A DNA stretch of 64,000 nucleotides from an uncultured bacterium (GTDB lineage: Bacteria; Planctomycetota; UBA1135; GCA-002686595), in contig CALLKX010000013.1 in assembly GCA_938083085.1 (NCBI GenBank), positions 1 to 64,000 of the forward strand. Reading direction: 5' to 3'. The notes under the pieces were generated by a model. It saw nothing but the letters and a program-made list of their open reading frames with translations. It had not been told where the DNA came from and searched no databases. Numbering within the stretch: position 1 is the stretch's first letter; each line of letters begins with the position of its first letter. This document shows positions 24,016 to 32,404 of the stretch, piece after piece. The position numbers were made by a program, and so were the translations under genes.

Positions 24016-26292
24016 TCAGCGGTTCATCCTGAGGTCGACCTCTGCCGCCGGGCGATGAGGAGCAACTTCTGGCACCTCGGGAGGGTCCTGCAGGAGGAGG
24101 GCGGAGAGCGCGTGGTCGCCGTTGAGGAGGAGGACCGTGAGCCGTCCCTGCTCATCCCGGTCGAGGCAATGGATGCCGTCCAGGGCGCGGGTCTCCAGGA
24201 TCAGGTTCTGGAGGGCACTGCGCTGGACACGGCCGCCCGGCCCGGCGGTCTCCATGGCGTACCTGGCATCGGACAGCAGCGAGATCCCCTCGGCATCTTC
24301 CAGCTTCGTTCCGAGGGGGATGACGTCCTCGGCCTCCAGGCTCTCCGCATAGGCCATGGCCGGGCCGGTGAGCGACAGGTCGTCGGGTTGGGCGAGAAGC
24401 AGGATCCGCGACCCGGCAGCGACCCGATGATCGGCGGGGAGCGCCATCATGGAGCCAGCCGGGCCGACCGTGGGCCGCGCGGCCCCTTCGGCAGCGACAT
24501 CGAAGGCTGCGGAGAGGCGCTCATGGTCGGCAGCAGCGCTGCGGTTGCGCTGGTCCTGGTCACGTGCCGTCATCAGGCCCGCGACGATGGCCGCCACCAC
24601 CGCGCAGGTGGCGAAGCCCCGGAGGGCCGCGCGACGACGGAGCCGTCTCGCGTCGCCGACCTCAGCGCGGGCATCGGCCCGCGCCTGCGCCTCCTCATGG
24701 CGTTGCTCGCTGGCGGTCGCGCGCTTCGACGCGAGGCCCGCGCGCTTTCTCGCGAGGGCCTCGCGGGTCCCCGCGATCTTCTCGGAGGCAGCTCCCAGGC
24801 CGCTGATCTCTGCCGTCAGGCCGAAGGCTCTGAAGCGTCGTACGTCCGGTTCGACGGACCGTCCGGCGGGCTCGCCACCCCGGGTGAAGCCGCTCTCCGC
24901 AGTGCCCACGTCGGGGGTGGACGCGGCTCTCTCGGAGGGCGTGGCGCCGGAGACCGACGGGAGCGCGGCGAGGGGGACCTTGTAGGGATCGGGCGCCCCG
25001 AGAAGCGCTTCTACATCGAGGAGCATTTCGTGCGCAGAGCCGTAGCGCTTGTCCACGTCAGCCATCGAGCGGCGCACGATCCAGCGCAGGCCCTCGGGGG
25101 CCTCCTTGCTGATGGACGAGAGGGAGCCGTGGGCGGGGAAGCTGTTCTCGACCATGGAGTACAGGACGGCCCCGGCGCTGTAGAGGTCGAACTTGACGCC
25201 GTCCACGTCCTGCACGCGTTTACCCGCGAGAGCGAGGCGGACGAGCTCGGGGTCACGGAAGAACTCCGTCCCGTGGGTGGTCAGGGTGAGCGCAGACTCC
25301 AGGGGAGTCACGAGCCCGAAGTCGACGACCCTCAGCCGGCCCTCTGAGACGAGGAGGTTCGAGGGCTTGATGTCCTTGTGCCAGAGGCCGCCTTGGTGGA
25401 AGCGCGTCAGGTGATGGCAGAGGTCACGGACGTAGCCGAGCACGAGAGACAGCTCGTCGTGTCCAAGCCCCTTGTCGCTGGAGCGCTGATGCAGGCGCGT
25501 GGTCTCGACGTCGAGGTCATGGCCGGGAACGAACGGCATGACGTAGTGGAAGGTCTCCTCGGTCGTCATGTGCTCGACCACGAGCCCCAGCCCACGGGCG
25601 GCCTCCAGGGCCCGGCTCTCGCGGACGATCTGAGGCACCGTCGAGCCGAAGCGTCGATCGAAGGCCTTGATCACGACCTGGCCGGGGACCTCGACGCCGC
25701 GTGCCGCCAGCTCGCTGATCTTGCCGCGGGTCGGGCGGGCGAGGAAGAGTCGTGCCCCCGACCCGCCCGCCCGGAGTTCATCCTCCACCTTGTAGCCGTC
25801 GAATCGCGCTGCAGCGGTCGCGGCCTCCTTGCTCCGGACCTGCGGCACCGCGGGCGCGGTCCGCGGCTCCTCCGCGAAGAGGGTGGGCGCCGCGACCTCG
25901 AGGCTCTCGGTCAACGCTCCGAGCCCAACGAGTCTGAGCGGGTGCCCGATGGCGACGCGGTACACACTGATCGTGAAGCCGTAGAAGGCGTCCTCGAATG
26001 CGCGGAAGTAGTGGCCGGCGGCGCGAAACCGAAGCAGCACGACGTTGGCCAGCATGAGGGGCAGCATGAACACGGCCGTCACGAGGTGTCCGACGGCCTG
26101 GGCCGAGTCGGTGATGACACCGCCGACGAAGCGGAAGGCGCTGCTGACCAGCCATCCGACTCCGGAGAACAGTCCCGAGAGCGCCCAGGTCAGTCCTCGC
26201 ACCACGTGGATCGCCAGCCAGACTCCCGCCACGGGGAGGATGAGCGCGACCCCGATGGCCAGGGCGAAGAGGATGAGGGCGGAGAAGGTCAT
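24016..26292 (-). CDS. Membrane-anchored Ser/Thr protein kinase
   Basis: VVIKAFD (Lys), WHKDIKPSNLLVSEGRLRVVDFGLVTP (catalytic loop and DFG); N-terminal hydrophobic segments and another hydrophobic segment. Confidence 0.9.
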   Translation of the reverse strand: MTFSALILFALAIGVALILPVAGVWLAIHVVRGLTWALSGLFSGVGWLVSSAFRFVGGVITDSAQAVGHLVTAVFMLPLMLANVVLLRFRAAGHYFRAFEDAFYGFTISVYRVAIGHPLRLVGLGALTESLEVAAPTLFAEEPRTAPAVPQVRSKEAATAAARFDGYKVEDELRAGGSGARLFLARPTRGKISELAARGVEVPGQVVIKAFDRRFGSTVPQIVRESRALEAARGLGLVVEHMTTEETFHYVMPFVPGHDLDVETTRLHQRSSDKGLGHDELSLVLGYVRDLCHHLTRFHQGGLWHKDIKPSNLLVSEGRLRVVDFGLVTPLESALTLTTHGTEFFRDPELVRLALAGKRVQDVDGVKFDLYSAGAVLYSMVENSFPAHGSLSSISKEAPEGLRWIVRRSMADVDKRYGSAHEMLLDVEALLGAPDPYKVPLAALPSVSGATPSERAASTPDVGTAESGFTRGGEPAGRSVEPDVRRFRAFGLTAEISGLGAASEKIAGTREALARKRAGLASKRATASEQRHEEAQARADARAEVGDARRLRRRAALRGFATCAVVAAIVAGLMTARDQDQRNRSAAADHERLSAAFDVAAEGAARPTVGPAGSMMALPADHRVAAGSRILLLAQPDDLSLTGPAMAYAESLEAEDVIPLGTKLEDAEGISLLSDARYAMETAGPGGRVQRSALQNLILETRALDGIHCLDRDEQGRLTVLLLNGDHALSALLLQDPPEVPEVAPHRPAAEVDLRMNR

Positions 26293-26325
26293 GGTGGAGC
26301 GCGTCGGTGGAGCCTCGAGTTCGCC

Positions 26326-27177
26326 TCAGCGATCCTCCCCTCGGGCGTCATGGGTCGTACGACGGGCCATGATGCGGGCGTAGATCTCGGCGATGGACTC
26401 GTCGAAGGACGCGTCCTCCGTCTTGTTGGGAGAGCGGTCAATGCCGTTTCGCTCGAGCTCTGCGATCTCCTCCTCGGTGAAGGAGAAGGTGGCGAAGACC
26501 TCGGCCAGGAGCTCCTGGAGGCGTCTTCGAGAGCGTGCGAGGCGGCGGCTCACGGTGGGCTCGCTCGTCCCGAGTGCGGCGGCCACATCCTTGCCGCTGC
26601 GGCCCTCCAGGGTTCGCATTCTGAAGGTCTCGAAGTCCATGAGGTCGCAGTCGCGCTCAAGGCGGCGGAGGGCGGCTTCGACCTTGGCGTCGAACACCTC
26701 CAGCTCGTACGCCGCGTCAGGCTGGAGATCCCCGGAGTCCGGCTCTCGCATCCCCTCGGCATCCAGAGGGAGCGGTCGGACGCCTGAGCCCCGCTTGAGG
26801 GCCCCGCGCCGGTCCATCTCGTCGCTCAGGGTGTACTTGGCGATGGCCAGGAGCCAGGTGGAGAACCTCGCCCCGCGGGTGGGGTCGTGTTGATCGATGG
26901 CCCGGGAGAGGGCGACCATGGTGTCCTGGGACAGGTCCTGGACGGTCTCGAACCCGATCCGGCCGCGACCCCACTTGGCCAGTTGAGCACGCAGCACGGG
27001 GCCGAAGATCTCCCAGAGCTCGAACCAGGCGTCGCCGTCCCGGGACCGGAGTCGGCCAATGAATCCAGTGGTGAGGTCGTGCAAGGGGGTGGGGAGGGGC
27101 GGGTTCGTGGGAAGGAGAGCGGCCGGCAGGAGGCCCGGGACGTGCATGTCTACGCCCTGATGTTCATTCCATTCCAT
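26326..27177 (-). CDS. RNA polymerase sigma-70/ECF-type sigma factor
   Basis: FETVQDLSQDTMVALSRAIDQHDPTRGARFSTWLLAIAKYTLSDEMDRR (region 2) and KDVAAALGTSEPTVSRRLARSRRRLQELL (region 4); start may be 27147. Confidence 0.87.
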   Translation of the reverse strand: MEWNEHQGVDMHVPGLLPAALLPTNPPLPTPLHDLTTGFIGRLRSRDGDAWFELWEIFGPVLRAQLAKWGRGRIGFETVQDLSQDTMVALSRAIDQHDPTRGARFSTWLLAIAKYTLSDEMDRRGALKRGSGVRPLPLDAEGMREPDSGDLQPDAAYELEVFDAKVEAALRRLERDCDLMDFETFRMRTLEGRSGKDVAAALGTSEPTVSRRLARSRRRLQELLAEVFATFSFTEEEIAELERNGIDRSPNKTEDASFDESIAEIYARIMARRTTHDARGEDR

Positions 27178-27327
27178 CTAGGGGCCTCGGAACAGAAAAA
27201 CGGCCCGGACCCAGGGAATCGTGAAAGGCCGGCAACGGAATGGCCAAGAAGGGGGTGTAGGCGCCGCTTCCGTGCCCCCTGCCCTCCTGCGCCAGTCGGC
27301 GCATTGACCCTCAACCGGACCTGTCTC

Positions 27328-28254
27328 ATGCGATTCCTGTTCAAGACCCTCTTCCGCACCGCCGTGATCGGCACCGCGCTCGCTGCGGCCGTCGTCGGCG
27401 GGACCGCCATGCTCGTTGGCCCTGAGCGCGTCGGCGCCATGGCGGACCAGGTGCAAGGCCAGCTTCAGTTGCACTTCGACCACAACATCGACGATCCCGT
27501 GGCCATGCGCCGCCAGATCGCTGAGGTGGCCAAGGAGTACCCCGAGCGTATCCGCGCCGTGCGGGGCGACCTCCACACCCTCCAGGAGGAGGTCGCGCGT
27601 CTCGAGCGTGAGCGCGCTGTGTCCCAGCGAGTGGTGGCCCTTGTGGACCGCGATCTCGCCCTGCTGGTCCCGGCGGTTCACGAAGCTGCTGCCTCCGGCG
27701 TCCCCAAGGCGCAGCTCGCTGCGGTTCGGTTTGGAGAGGAGGTCATCAGCTTCCGCCGGGCGACCGCGAAGATGCGCGAGATCGAGCGGACCCGCAGCGC
27801 ACACGAGGCCCGGTCGGCCGACGCTGCCCACAACCTGAAGTACCTGCGAACTCAGGAGGAGCGCTTCGTCGAACTCCTCGACGAACTGGAGGGCGAGCAC
27901 GCCCAGTTCCAGGCCCAGCTGGTTCAGCTCAACAACGAGGTTGAGTCCATCGCCCGGAACGAGCGCCTGATCGACATGCTCGGTCAACGCCAACAGACTT
28001 TGGATGAGGCCGGGCGCTACGACGCGGTGAGCTTCGAACACATCACCGGTACCCTCGAGCGCAAGCGCGCCGAGCAGGAGGCCGAGCTCGATCAACTCGC
28101 CGCGGGTGCCAGGGCCCAGGACTACCTCGAGATCGCCGCCTCGCAGATTCGTAGTGAGGTCGGGCAGCAGCCGGCGGCCGATTTCGCCCCGCAGAGCCTT
28201 GCGGACCAGCAGGTGGGCTACGAGCTCGCACCGGTTGGGTACACCCAGCGCTGA
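27328..28254 (+). CDS. Coiled-coil membrane protein, hypothetical
   Basis: N-terminal TM (FRTAVIGTALAAAVVGGTAMLV) then long Glu/Arg/Leu-rich helices; start placed at ATG 27328. Confidence 0.8.
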   Translation: MRFLFKTLFRTAVIGTALAAAVVGGTAMLVGPERVGAMADQVQGQLQLHFDHNIDDPVAMRRQIAEVAKEYPERIRAVRGDLHTLQEEVARLERERAVSQRVVALVDRDLALLVPAVHEAAASGVPKAQLAAVRFGEEVISFRRATAKMREIERTRSAHEARSADAAHNLKYLRTQEERFVELLDELEGEHAQFQAQLVQLNNEVESIARNERLIDMLGQRQQTLDEAGRYDAVSFEHITGTLERKRAEQEAELDQLAAGARAQDYLEIAASQIRSEVGQQPAADFAPQSLADQQVGYELAPVGYTQR

Positions 28255-28311
28255 GCGAGGATCGTCAAAGGAGACGCGGTCCTGACCGCGCGCTCCGCGC
28301 GGAAGCAAAGT

Positions 28312-28339
28312 GAGCCCGGCCGTCTAGACGGCCGGGCTC
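28312..28339. terminator. Bidirectional intrinsic terminator
   Basis: Perfect 28-bp palindrome GAGCCCGGCCGTCTAGACGGCCGGGCTC followed by TTTGTTGGTTT on +. Confidence 0.9.
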
Positions 28340-28390
28340 TTTGTTGGTTTCGGGAACACGCACGCGGGTACGCACCCGTCGGGCATACGC

Positions 28391-28426
28391 CTAGCGGCGC
28401 GCTCCCTTGGTAACGTCACTCATCAT
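28391..28426 (-). CDS. Putative 11-aa micropeptide ORF MMSDVTKGARR (in-frame extensions to 28453 = 20 aa or 28519 = 42 aa)
   Basis: TGGAGGTGATCAGC-ATG: 10-nt match (GGAGGTGATC) to the conserved anti-SD; 8-nt spacing from GGAGG; TAG at 28391-28393. Confidence 0.45.
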   Translation of the reverse strand: MMSDVTKGARR

Positions 28427-28570
28427 GCTGATCACCTCCAGTTTCAAAACCATCCCGGCCCCGCGGTGACGATGCGGGGGTAGGGCTCCAGTGATGGCCC
28501 GGGCGTCCCGGGGCCTCATGCCTTGATGATGGGCCGCCGAGGCGGCAGATTCAAATGGGTGGTATGAGAG

Positions 28571-28611
28571 AGGCCCCGCGTGGCACCACAGGGGTGCGAC
28601 GCGGGGCCTCG
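28571..28611 (-). terminator. Intrinsic terminator downstream of the 1174-aa secreted-protein ORF
   Basis: Inverted repeat gaggccccgcgtggcacc / gggtgcgacgcggggcctc; coordinates approximate. Confidence 0.75.
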
Positions 28612-28666
28612 CTGCGTGGGTTCCCGCCTCAGGGCGGGACAGGATCCACTCAGGACGGGTGCGAGC

Positions 28667-31600
28667 TCACTCGAGCCAGGAGAGTCCCAGGGCGGCGACC
28701 TCGGGGACGAGACCGGTGCTCGCGTTGCTGATGAAGGACATGCGGACCTGCAGGAAGCGGGCGCCGGTCACATTGAGGACGTCCGTCTTCCAGCTGTCGT
28801 CGTTGTTGAGGAAGCCGGTCAGACCGTTCTGGTCGGCGACCTCGTAGCTGAAGGAACCGTCCCAGCAGGACGCGTTGCCGCGCAGCTCGATGGTGGGGTC
28901 CTCCATCGGGCTCGCCGTGTAGTTGATGGGCTTCGTCTGGTAGAAGTCGCCGTAGGCGTCCTGACGGCTCGCGTCCTCGCCTGCGATGGCGATGATGGTG
29001 ACCGCGCCGCGGTAAGCGAACTCGACGCTCGTGCCCTGGGGCTGGAGCTCGGGGAAGATCACCGGCTCGGCGAAGGTCGGGGCCGAGAAGGCTCCGATCC
29101 CGAGCGGGTCGAGCGCCTCGTAGAACAGCGAGTGAGCCCGGCTCACCCGGACCACAAGGTCAAGGGCGCCGAAGTACAGGGCGTTGTCGACGCCGGGGAG
29201 CGGGGCGCCCGCCGGTGTGGACGTCGGATCGAAGCCGCCGTTGGCCAGGTTCTCGGAGTCCGGGTTCACCAGGTTGAGCGTGCCCGTCTCGTCCCGGCCG
29301 CCCGCGGAGTAGGCGCGGAAGCCCGGGAGGGTCGAGGTGTGCGCCAGCTGATGGGCGAAGATGTTGCTCGAGGTCGCGTTCCCCGTGGGGTAGCAGCGGA
29401 ACTCGACCAGCAGCGGGAGGGCCGCGGTGCGGACCTCTTCGCCGAGGTAGAAGGGGTTGGCGAGGCCCGGCTGGTTGCAGTCGGGGCCCATCATGGTCTC
29501 GAGCTCGGCCACCGGGCCGAGGCCCGTGATCTGCGCCTGGCGGGCGACGGGCGCGCCGGCGCCGCTGAAGCCGCCGCGTGTGCGGATTCCCGTGTCGCGC
29601 CAGGTGTAGTACTCCTTCTGGCTCGCCGGGACGCCCTGGTTCATGGGCGTCGGAATCAGCGAGGTCCCGTCCGGCGCAAGCGTCTGGTCCCCGGGGTTGA
29701 TGGTGTAGCCAGCCGCTCGGGGGTGGACGACCTTCAGCGGGTCGTTGGCGCCGTCGACGATGTTGGTGTTGAACGTGTTGCCGAGGCCCGAGTTGGGCAG
29801 GATCAGCGCGCCGGACAGCGGGTCGATGACCTCGTCGGGGAGGTTCTCCGAGTGAGCCATGGACATCTGGAACTCGGGATAGCTCTCGAAGACCGGGTTG
29901 CCGCCGAGGGGGCTCAGGGAGACACCCTCGATGTCCAGGTTGATCTGGGCGTAGTTCAGGTCCTGAGCGACGTCGTTGTCCCGGGTGAGCGGCAGGTCAT
30001 CGCCGAAGTCGATGTAGCGCCAGAGGATCTGGGTCCGGGCGCCGTAGGGACTCAGCGGGAGTGTCGTACCGACGCCAGGCTGCATGGCCGCGACGACCTC
30101 GTTGTTCTGGCTGCAGACCACCTGCGTGCGGACCACCGGACGGCCACGGACGCGGCCGCGCTCAAGGTCGAAGACGATCTGCCCGAACCACTCGGGCTTC
30201 TCGAAGGTGTCGATCACGTTGGCCGAGTTCGGGTCGCCGAAGGGCGCTTCGTCGTCGGTGGACTCGAAGCGGATGACGCGGCCGCCAGTGGGAGCGTCAG
30301 GCGCCGAGGGGTCCACGGTGATCTCAAGGGGCGAGAGCAGCCCGGTCACGGGGTTGCCAGCGAGGTCCTTGGGGGTGCGGTCGCCGCCGGGGAAGTCCAG
30401 GAAGTACGACTCGCCGTCGCCCTGGCTGTGGGAGAGCGGCAGCTCGGGCTCGAAGCGGAACTCCTGGAACGAGGTGCTGTTCCGCACCACGCCGGGGATG
30501 AAGTCGCCAGCCGGGATCGGGGTGGTCGAGAAGGGGTCGGGCACGTTCCGGAGCAGCCGGAACGACTCATAGGGCTCGAACAGGTTCGGGTCGATCGCCT
30601 CGCTGAAGCGGAAGCGGAAGGTCGCGCCGGGCGCCACGTTGCTGACCGGGGCGTTCGCGTCCGGGGGAGCAGGCGAGACGCTGATGAAGCACTGGGAGCG
30701 TGAGCTGTCCTCGGCCGGAATGAACGGGACGACATACTGGACCGGGCCAAGGATCGTCGTGAACTGCGCGGGGTCGAAGGCCGGGGGGAAGGCCAAGAGC
30801 CGCACGAGGACGTTCTGGGCGAGGCCGCCCGGCGACACCGAGGTGCTGTTGAGGACCTCTGCGAAGTAGGGCCCCTGGCTGATCAGGTCGCCGGGTGCCG
30901 GCGCCTGGGCGCAGGCGGACGAGACGAACTGGACGCGGCTGAGGTTGAAGATCAGGGGATCAACGCCCGGGGCCGTGGCGGGCGAGTCGAGCAGCACCGC
31001 CGAGAGGCTGCCGATGAGGGTCGGCGCGGTCTCGTCCGGGAGGAAGCCGTTGGACGGATCGTTGGTGACCGCGGTCTCACCGCCGGAGCGGAACGCGCGG
31101 ACGAGCTCGCGGCCAGGCGAGCCGAAGTCGAAGGTTCCGTTGGAGCTGGTCGTGAGCGCGTGCGCCGTCGGGTTCTGGAGCAGGGGCTGCTGCTGCCCGG
31201 CGAGGGCCAAGGTCGGGAAGCGAAGCTCCACGTTGGCGAGGTCAGCCTCGTTGCTGGCGGGGAAGCCGATCGTGTTCACGGACACCGCCGGGTCGCTGTT
31301 GAAGGACTCCACCTCGCTCACGGCGGGATCGACGAGCAGGCGCGTCGAGTAAAACTCCACGCCCGGCTGGCCGTCGTAGTCCGCGACGCCACCGTGGTTG
31401 GGGTCGGGCAGGAAGCGCGCCTCGAAGGGAATGATGGTGGGCTCGCCCACCAGCAGTCGCACCGATGCTGAGTTGATCGTGGCGGGGTCGACGAGGTCGT
31501 CGAAGACCACGACGATCGTGGCGTTGCGGGGCACCATGGAGTACGTGCCCGCGCCGACGAAGCCGTTGTCGGCGATGGGGCGGACGCCAGACTCTGCCAG

Positions 31601-32059
31601 GGACAGGAGCGACAGGAATTGGTCGCGGCCCCCGTTCCGCGTCTCGTCCGAGAAGTCGCGATAGATCACCAGCGTCTGAACGCCCGTGACCTGATTGGTC
31701 TCAAGCTCGAAGTCCGGCAGCGCCCAGCCGCTCTGGGACTTCGGGTTCACGACATAGTCCTGGAAGACGGTCGTGCGCTGCGTGAGCGCAGCGTCCTCGA
31801 AGGCGACGATGTTCACGAGGCGTCCGTAGAACTGGCGCGTGATGCGAAGTTCCGTCGCGGCGCCACCGAAGTTGTCGTCGACCAGGTACTGGCCTCCGTT
31901 CGGCTTGGTCTCCAGTGACCCTGCGGGAGTGGTCTGCTGGTCGGGTGAGGACGTGGAGTTGCAGCCCGCGAAGGCCAGAACAGCGACCGTGGCCAACGCC
32001 TGGGTGAGGCGGAGAGGGGTCGCAGGCTGGAGTCGGGGGAGAATGGTCCGTGCAGTCAT
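28667..32059 (-). CDS. Large secreted lipoprotein with Ig-like (SbsA/Big_5-like) segments
   Basis: Signal LTQALATVAVLAFAGCNS lipobox; repeated PxxGATFRFRFSEAIDPNLF-like and TIVVVFDDLVDPATINSASV segments; start placed at MTARTIL. Confidence 0.8.
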   Translation of the reverse strand: MTARTILPRLQPATPLRLTQALATVAVLAFAGCNSTSSPDQQTTPAGSLETKPNGGQYLVDDNFGGAATELRITRQFYGRLVNIVAFEDAALTQRTTVFQDYVVNPKSQSGWALPDFELETNQVTGVQTLVIYRDFSDETRNGGRDQFLSLLSLAESGVRPIADNGFVGAGTYSMVPRNATIVVVFDDLVDPATINSASVRLLVGEPTIIPFEARFLPDPNHGGVADYDGQPGVEFYSTRLLVDPAVSEVESFNSDPAVSVNTIGFPASNEADLANVELRFPTLALAGQQQPLLQNPTAHALTTSSNGTFDFGSPGRELVRAFRSGGETAVTNDPSNGFLPDETAPTLIGSLSAVLLDSPATAPGVDPLIFNLSRVQFVSSACAQAPAPGDLISQGPYFAEVLNSTSVSPGGLAQNVLVRLLAFPPAFDPAQFTTILGPVQYVVPFIPAEDSSRSQCFISVSPAPPDANAPVSNVAPGATFRFRFSEAIDPNLFEPYESFRLLRNVPDPFSTTPIPAGDFIPGVVRNSTSFQEFRFEPELPLSHSQGDGESYFLDFPGGDRTPKDLAGNPVTGLLSPLEITVDPSAPDAPTGGRVIRFESTDDEAPFGDPNSANVIDTFEKPEWFGQIVFDLERGRVRGRPVVRTQVVCSQNNEVVAAMQPGVGTTLPLSPYGARTQILWRYIDFGDDLPLTRDNDVAQDLNYAQINLDIEGVSLSPLGGNPVFESYPEFQMSMAHSENLPDEVIDPLSGALILPNSGLGNTFNTNIVDGANDPLKVVHPRAAGYTINPGDQTLAPDGTSLIPTPMNQGVPASQKEYYTWRDTGIRTRGGFSGAGAPVARQAQITGLGPVAELETMMGPDCNQPGLANPFYLGEEVRTAALPLLVEFRCYPTGNATSSNIFAHQLAHTSTLPGFRAYSAGGRDETGTLNLVNPDSENLANGGFDPTSTPAGAPLPGVDNALYFGALDLVVRVSRAHSLFYEALDPLGIGAFSAPTFAEPVIFPELQPQGTSVEFAYRGAVTIIAIAGEDASRQDAYGDFYQTKPINYTASPMEDPTIELRGNASCWDGSFSYEVADQNGLTGFLNNDDSWKTDVLNVTGARFLQVRMSFISNASTGLVPEVAALGLSWLE

Positions 32060-32404
32060 CGAAGATCGAGATCGGATTGAAGGTGGCGTCTGAGGCTCCA
32101 TGGCTGCCTTTGGGGGCCAAGGCAGCGTTCCTGGGCTCAGGCGCTGGTACCAACCGGGAGCAAACCCCGTTCCAAAGTGAACTGGGGCCACAGTTCGGCC
32201 AGCGGCACCTACAGGTTAGGTGGATGGACCAACGGAGGCAACGCCGAGGGGCCTGACTCCCCGGGGGATTGGGCGGTTCGGCGTCCTGGGGACGCGCGGC
32301 TCGTGCGGAATCGCACACCTCGTAGGGCGGGCGCGGAGGCGGGCGGGTCCGCTTCTGGCCCCGCGCTGGGTCCGAGGCGGCCGGGAGCGCAGAATGAACG
32401 CGAG

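Follow-up and report, generated by a model that had tools for sequence, protein, structure and literature searches.

A predicted single-copy structured RNA in Planctomycetota that carries a long Shine-Dalgarno sequence and a short ORF within its fold

The RNA described here resembles SgrS and RNAIII, which are dual-function sRNAs, in being a stand-alone sRNA with a terminator and an ORF. VcdRP is a further system of this type (PMC8672173). Leader peptide attenuators and uORF motifs such as ilvB and fthC (PMC11109978) also have a strong Shine-Dalgarno (SD) sequence, a structured short ORF and a terminator after it, and in both cases the position of the ribosome could set the fold. tmRNA (RF00023) is a housekeeping RNA, partly mRNA, with a short ORF and a pseudoknot. 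The Downstream-peptide or yfr6 RNA of cyanobacteria (RF01704, PMC2864571) is a structured RNA with a conserved short ORF, and extended SD initiation in Staphylococcus aureus (PMC13009471) involves pairing along the 16S tail towards the start codon. Planctomycetes are reported to be one of the phyla in which few genes have an SD sequence (PMC5397173).

The locus lies in the window, meaning the whole 64-kb stretch of DNA that was analysed. It lies within the intergenic stretch 28255-28666, flanked by an ORF on the plus strand that ends at 28254 and one on the minus strand that ends at 28667. Its parts are the following.

28526-28554, minus strand: sigma-70-like promoter candidate TTGAAT-N17-CATCAT, read directly from the alignment and below the promoter-consensus threshold
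About 28519-28312, minus strand: predicted transcript of roughly 208 nt, with putative ends
28330-28518, minus strand: conserved RNA, the extent matched by covariance models R2 and R3
28496-28515, minus strand: hairpin H1, an inverted repeat GGCCCCGGGACGCCCGGGCC with a GACG loop (GUCG in families f6 and f7); 8 of 8 pairs have two-sided changes that keep the pairing
28454-28485, minus strand: hairpin H2, from RNAalifold on the 9 genus sequences, with two-sided changes
28466-28471, minus strand: H2 loop CGUCAC, a pseudoknot strand with its partner at 28419-28414, supported by compensatory changes and a swap test
28439-28430, minus strand: SD sequence GGAGGTGATC / GGAGGUGAUC; the window's copy matches 10 nt of the 16S tail
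28391-28426, minus strand: SD-spaced ORF of 11 codons, MMSDVTKGARR, with ATG at 28426 and TAG at 28393-28391
28414-28419, minus strand: GUGACG in ORF codons 3-5, partner of the H2 loop, with compensatory changes
28352-28406, minus strand: H3; its outer stem (28406-28397 paired to 28361-28352) takes up the ORF's 3' half and has two-sided changes in 8 of its 10 pairs
28368-28388, minus strand: inner hairpin of H3 with conserved CCGACGGG, from alignment and covariation
28312-28339, minus strand: downstream terminator, common to the RNA and the convergent gene, scoring as a terminator on both strands

The minimum free energy fold of 28560-28310 is more stable than 200 of 200 shuffles (z = -4.2). 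The initial annotation had proposed a micropeptide gene here, with letters and coordinates that are correct, and its 10-nt SD match and the 8-nt gap between GGAGG and the ATG hold up against the 16S 3' end of genus mates. The 11-codon ORF is found with SD, start and stop in 9 of 9 genus genomes. The longer in-frame versions of 20 and 42 amino acids do not survive comparison: the upstream frame is shifted in four relatives (L050, L052, L053 and L058), and stops interrupt it in L050. The gene had been placed between two terminators, of which the one at 28339-28312 stands, on both strands, and the one at 28611-28571 turns out to be a GC-rich hairpin without a T tract. Similarly, one of the GC-rich inverted repeats pointed out in the leader is the conserved H1, and the other, GCCGCC-TC-GGCGGC upstream of H1, is unconserved.

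The spread of the RNA was followed outward from the genus. Among 41 genomes searched at the DNA level, all 9 of the genus have the stretch and no genome of another genus does; the core 28541-28368 is kept among the genus genomes, and the flanks are not. A covariance model built from the nine genus sequences (R1) matched 26 of 81 family genomes, once in each. One of these (L043) was judged a false match, as was L208, and every remaining R1 match, read by eye, had an SD, a short ORF and hairpins. The model R2 matched 33 of 154 genomes of the order with one match each, families f6 and f7 included; here the order is the whole class in the genome collection used. A DNA pattern scan of one genome per species over 84,980 species returned 41 loci, 27 of which were confirmed by R2. 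All 27 are in Planctomycetota or in MAGs, and they include Phycisphaerales and Poly30, which we take to be Saltatorellus ferox. The Poly30 copy is on the minus strand of CP036434.1, at about 3,497,901-3,498,086. Four Aeromonas species (L086, L093, L103 and L115) gave one DNA-pattern match each, with covariance-model E values of 0.17 or worse where reported; these are probably unrelated conserved sequence.

R3, a covariance model made from 37 sequences, matched 57 genomes in a sample of 392 from the phylum Planctomycetota, always once each, a copy count that is a first look with few candidates scored per genome and many assemblies that are MAGs. The weak R3 matches, read by eye, have the same anatomy in different letters, and the SD and short ORF are still present in L206 and L207 (E = 4e-4 and 0.04). 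The search models contain the SD and ORF letters, so their matches are biased towards keeping them. When 25 class members were retested, 22 gave no match at E <= 0.1; in such genomes absence and divergence look the same. In 21 further genomes, nearly all of them without a model match, exact copies of the 12-nt SD were antisense to 16S or lay in coding-type contexts, and none marked a new member of the family. Judged from sequence, the window's copy is a member of a single-copy structured RNA family across many families of Planctomycetota. The anatomy common to nearly all detected members is H1, H2 with its loop-ORF pairing, a long SD, an ORF of 10-13 codons and a stem that takes in the ORF's 3' half, often with a terminator after it.

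The fold is supported by covariation. In the alignment of 37 sequences, 24 of 30 pairs have compensatory two-sided changes, and the covariation score is 0.403, compared with 0.167 when shuffled and <= 0.095 with partners slid; the structure was also examined on an earlier 23-sequence alignment. The H2 loop pairs with ORF codons 2-5 across members, again with compensatory changes. This pseudoknot is absent from every alignment model, yet 95% of its cells pair. A UA pair becomes AU in L063 and L064, and GC becomes AU in members of f6 and f7 (AUCAC/GUGAU). Divergent members re-pair with new letters: GGACUUC/GAAGUCC in L158, GGGAUUU/AAGUCCC in L156, CAGGUA/UACCUG in L151 and AAUCACG/CGUGGUU in L126.

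Two partner-swap tests were run on this pairing. With contiguous pairing restricted to the apical loop, the native total was reached in 1 of 20000 permutations, with the loop chosen automatically (wrongly in some members) and not all members showing the pairing. A duplex-energy version that allowed long gapped duplexes gave no signal (native -14.0, swapped -13.2). Of the two, only the loop-restricted contiguous version is informative. The mini-ORF is engaged in two structures, its 5' part in the pairing with the H2 loop and its 3' part in the H3 stem; an alternative fold is hypothetical.

Two further elements were seen upstream of H1. In one lineage (L085, L110 and L117) a hairpin loop there has CACCUCC, the complement of GGAGGUG in the SD of the same RNA. 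This hairpin may mask the SD, or the 5' end of the RNA may lie further upstream. In several Phycisphaerae-type members a conserved GCGACGACCG precedes H1.

The mini-ORF was surveyed in 58 representative groups. Taking the first correctly spaced start codon, 57 of 58 groups have an ORF of 9-14 codons, where shuffles give an expectation of 2.6; the SD locator used in this survey favoured an SD with a short ORF after it. Lengths are 10-13 codons with a single exception of 6, which is the divergent Phycisphaerales member L080 (MSGDKQ, with a 12/12 SD); L059, a non-representative member, has 14. Starts are ATG in 33 groups, GTG in 19 and TTG in 6, and stops are TAG in 23, TGA in 18 and TAA in 17. 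Indels within the ORF are multiples of three, whether they fall after the pseudoknot strand and ahead of the stem strand (+3 or +12) or add codons before the pseudoknot. Short ORFs are common, and an SD could meet one by chance in a GC-rich intergenic hairpin region, but in the face of phylum-wide conservation, covariation and frame preservation we find this scarcely credible.

The peptide behaves differently from the ORF. Within the genus, 9 of 9 genomes keep SD, start, stop and 11 codons, with the peptide reading MMSD[V/A/G/D][T/N][K/R]G[A/T/M]RR and the stop TAG or TAA. Over the phylum it drifts through MMSDVTKGARR, MSDRTDGGLHT, VTYFRDCVKGLHA, LMIVRGSIRRWVR and VGSPNRRPSS, and between families it differs almost wholly, with the SD, the reading frame, the ORF length, the pairing of loop and ORF, and the stems all retained. 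Codon differences in close clusters are mildly biased to the third position (86, versus 53 and 27), and 67 are nonsynonymous and 72 synonymous, in pairwise counts that are non-independent and uncorrected for stems and kinship. The support for coding therefore comes from frame, start, stop and length. Residue composition is mixed (R 13%, G 12%, S 11%, L 9%), and the mini-ORFs of the 58 groups are not enriched in codons of one sensed amino acid.

As a small-protein gene would have it, SD, start, frame and stop are all conserved, and the micropeptide might be the product: a secreted or ribosome-active peptide of 10-13 amino acids, with a fold that merely tunes its translation. The conserved SD-ORF favours this idea, as do residues that recur near the peptide end (K/R-G-L-H or R-R-W/P) and T-K/R codons that vary at third positions within family f1. 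The recurring residues lie in the H3 stem strand, so pairing can explain them. Length and RNA stems stay where the sequence turns over almost completely between families, and nonsynonymous changes are about as frequent as synonymous ones. No conserved functional peptide emerges from sequences that drift in this way, and we regard a peptide product as unlikely. Selection seems to act more on translation and the stems than on the peptide, which is probably a by-product.

More broadly, the initial annotation had also allowed for a small structured RNA that is partly coding, and the conserved fold and the frame-kept ORF support this. Conservation of SD plus ORF in relatives, whose absence it would have counted against the gene, was found in the genus and over the phylum. 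A micropeptide as the conserved product was not borne out.

The SD sequence is unusually strong. The 16S 3' end was taken from relatives, as the stretch is missing in the window's own assembly; it reads ...CTGGATCACCTCCTT in genus mates, so the 10-nt match of the window's SD stands, and ...CTGCGGCTGGATCACCTCCTT in eight related genomes. In most relatives the SD is AAGGAGGUGAUC, the complement of the free 16S tail. The contiguous match to the 16S tail is 9-16 nt long in 56 of 58 groups and at least 12 nt in 38 of 58. In three genomes (G487, G463 and G405) the 12-mer AAGGAGGTGATC occurs twice per genome, once as 16S-tail antisense and once in the RNA family member; other genomes have small numbers of further 12-mer full-tail SD copies. 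In 46 of 58 groups there is a second, G-rich and SD-like tract whose 3' end lies 9-10 nt ahead of the stop codon, an initiation-like spacing to the last sense codon. Since the tract doubles as a stem strand, an SD role for it is no more than a possibility.

These matches would suit an RNA that works as a decoy, pairing with the 16S tail to hold or titrate small subunits while the mini-ORF lets ribosomes cycle. A tail match of up to 16 nt, the near absence of equal SDs elsewhere and the second G-rich tract all fit. A pure decoy would have no need for a covarying loop-ORF pseudoknot, a frame-kept ORF or the H1 and H3 loops, however, and the G-rich tract is explained as a stem strand without any SD role. 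We consider a decoy unlikely, about as much so as a peptide product.

The neighbourhood is not conserved. The next gene after the window's RNA is convergent, and other members lie beside genes for an amidohydrolase and an MFS protein (L084), PPK2 (L095), a molybdopterin oxidoreductase (L078) or MatE (L113). FtsK is upstream in L085 and L083, and a T2SSE-type ATPase is convergent in L085, L081 and L106. The RNA had been called a stand-alone unit, and neighbours that differ among members support this. By a crude test, 37 of 58 groups have a terminator-like hairpin plus T tract after the RNA. Directly upstream of H1, the promoter candidates of the window and of other genus members are of the type TTGNAT-N17/18-CATNAT; support for a promoter, in the genus and over the phylum, is weak.

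The order of SD, mini-ORF, hairpin and terminator is attenuator-like, and in L084 a same-strand MFS gene begins 38 nt past the RNA match, as would be expected of a cis-acting leader. No conserved same-strand downstream gene, the mark of an attenuator, was found among the members examined. With a convergent next gene in the window and widely differing neighbours elsewhere, regulation of a downstream gene in cis seems very unlikely.

Other features around the window's copy were noted. The plus-strand ORF at about 27300-28254, which converges on the RNA and uses the same terminator, appears to have a PspA-type coiled coil in its C-terminal part and an N-terminal membrane segment. On the minus strand, 28667-32191 encodes a protein of 1174 amino acids that begins like a lipoprotein and matches no Pfam family. 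Also on the minus strand, in the 24016-27177 region, a 283-amino-acid ORF (26326-27177) resembling an ECF-type sigma factor is followed by a kinase-like ORF of 758 amino acids (24016-26292).

The RNA was compared with known classes. No Rfam 15 family reached its gathering score at gathering and relaxed thresholds, and the weak sub-threshold matches were judged to be chance. The region has no tmRNA (RF00023) covariance-model match and no match to 6S RNA (RF00013), and ARAGORN found no tmRNA in the window. A tmRNA was found elsewhere in 10 of 10 genomes tested (G000 and nine others), and 6S candidates elsewhere in 7 of the 10, the G000 copy lying at C8:95207-95372. Identity as tmRNA or 6S was rejected, since neither has an Rfam match here and both are present elsewhere in genomes tested. 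From the letters of the H1 and H3 loops alone, guanidine-II-like ACGR hairpins and CsrA-like GGA loops came into question, but the register of the loops and the second hairpin speak against both. Were the RNA a divergent form of a known class, whether tmRNA, 6S, SRP or a ribosomal leader, this would account for the housekeeping-like, single-copy distribution; the missing Rfam score and the separate tmRNA and 6S genes make it highly improbable. No earlier description of the RNA was found among the open-access papers searched.

What is conserved is the position of the ORF and not its peptide, which points to an RNA that may function through its own translation, and there is no particular gene downstream, so its output would have to be in trans. 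The reading that we favour, and give about an even chance, is that this is a stand-alone structured RNA of about 190-210 nt that may act via ribosome engagement, with an output in trans. The RNA would be transcribed as one unit, and a 30S subunit would land on the unusually strong SD beside a closed start region. The start of translation would pull codons 2-5 from the pseudoknot, and a ribosome at the stop codon would melt the outer H3 stem, so that ribosome availability or elongation might switch the RNA between folds. The output could come from conserved H1 and H3 loops exposed to an RNA or protein partner, or ribosomes might simply be held on the RNA. A narrower proposal, which we consider doubtful, is an RNA that monitors translation status or ribosome quality: it would recognise 30S subunits with a complete free 16S tail, use the throw-away mini-ORF as a test, and then report in trans through a change of fold or retain ribosomes at the stop codon via the internal SD-like tract.

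Planctomycetota, reportedly a low-SD phylum, keep the 16S anti-SD tail, and in several of the genomes studied it is this one undescribed RNA that has the strongest SD possible. A single-copy RNA that is kept across families of a whole phylum likely does basic work, and its reach is perhaps comparable to that of tmRNA or 6S RNA. As the ORF seems to be conserved for its translation and not for its peptide, culturable strains such as Saltatorellus ferox Poly30 and Phycisphaera-type isolates offer a direct way to test whether a trans-acting RNA senses ribosomes.

The family is new to Rfam, and it is without the tested membership features of tmRNA, 6S RNA, attenuator leaders and dual-function sRNAs. 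Attenuators and uORF motifs have a conserved downstream gene or an enrichment in a single amino acid, whereas the planctomycete RNA has neither and is stand-alone, single-copy and phylum-wide. Compared with dual-function sRNAs, the peptide here is unconserved, but ORF length, ORF position and loop-ORF pairing are conserved. Unlike tmRNA, it has no tRNA-like domain, and its ORF has its own SD and start codon. RF01704 is found in other taxa, gives no Rfam match here, and has an ORF that follows a conserved 5' UTR, whereas the planctomycete ORF lies within the fold. In S. aureus, extended SD pairing is a genome-wide feature of initiation, whereas here it is one RNA with an extreme match in a low-SD phylum.
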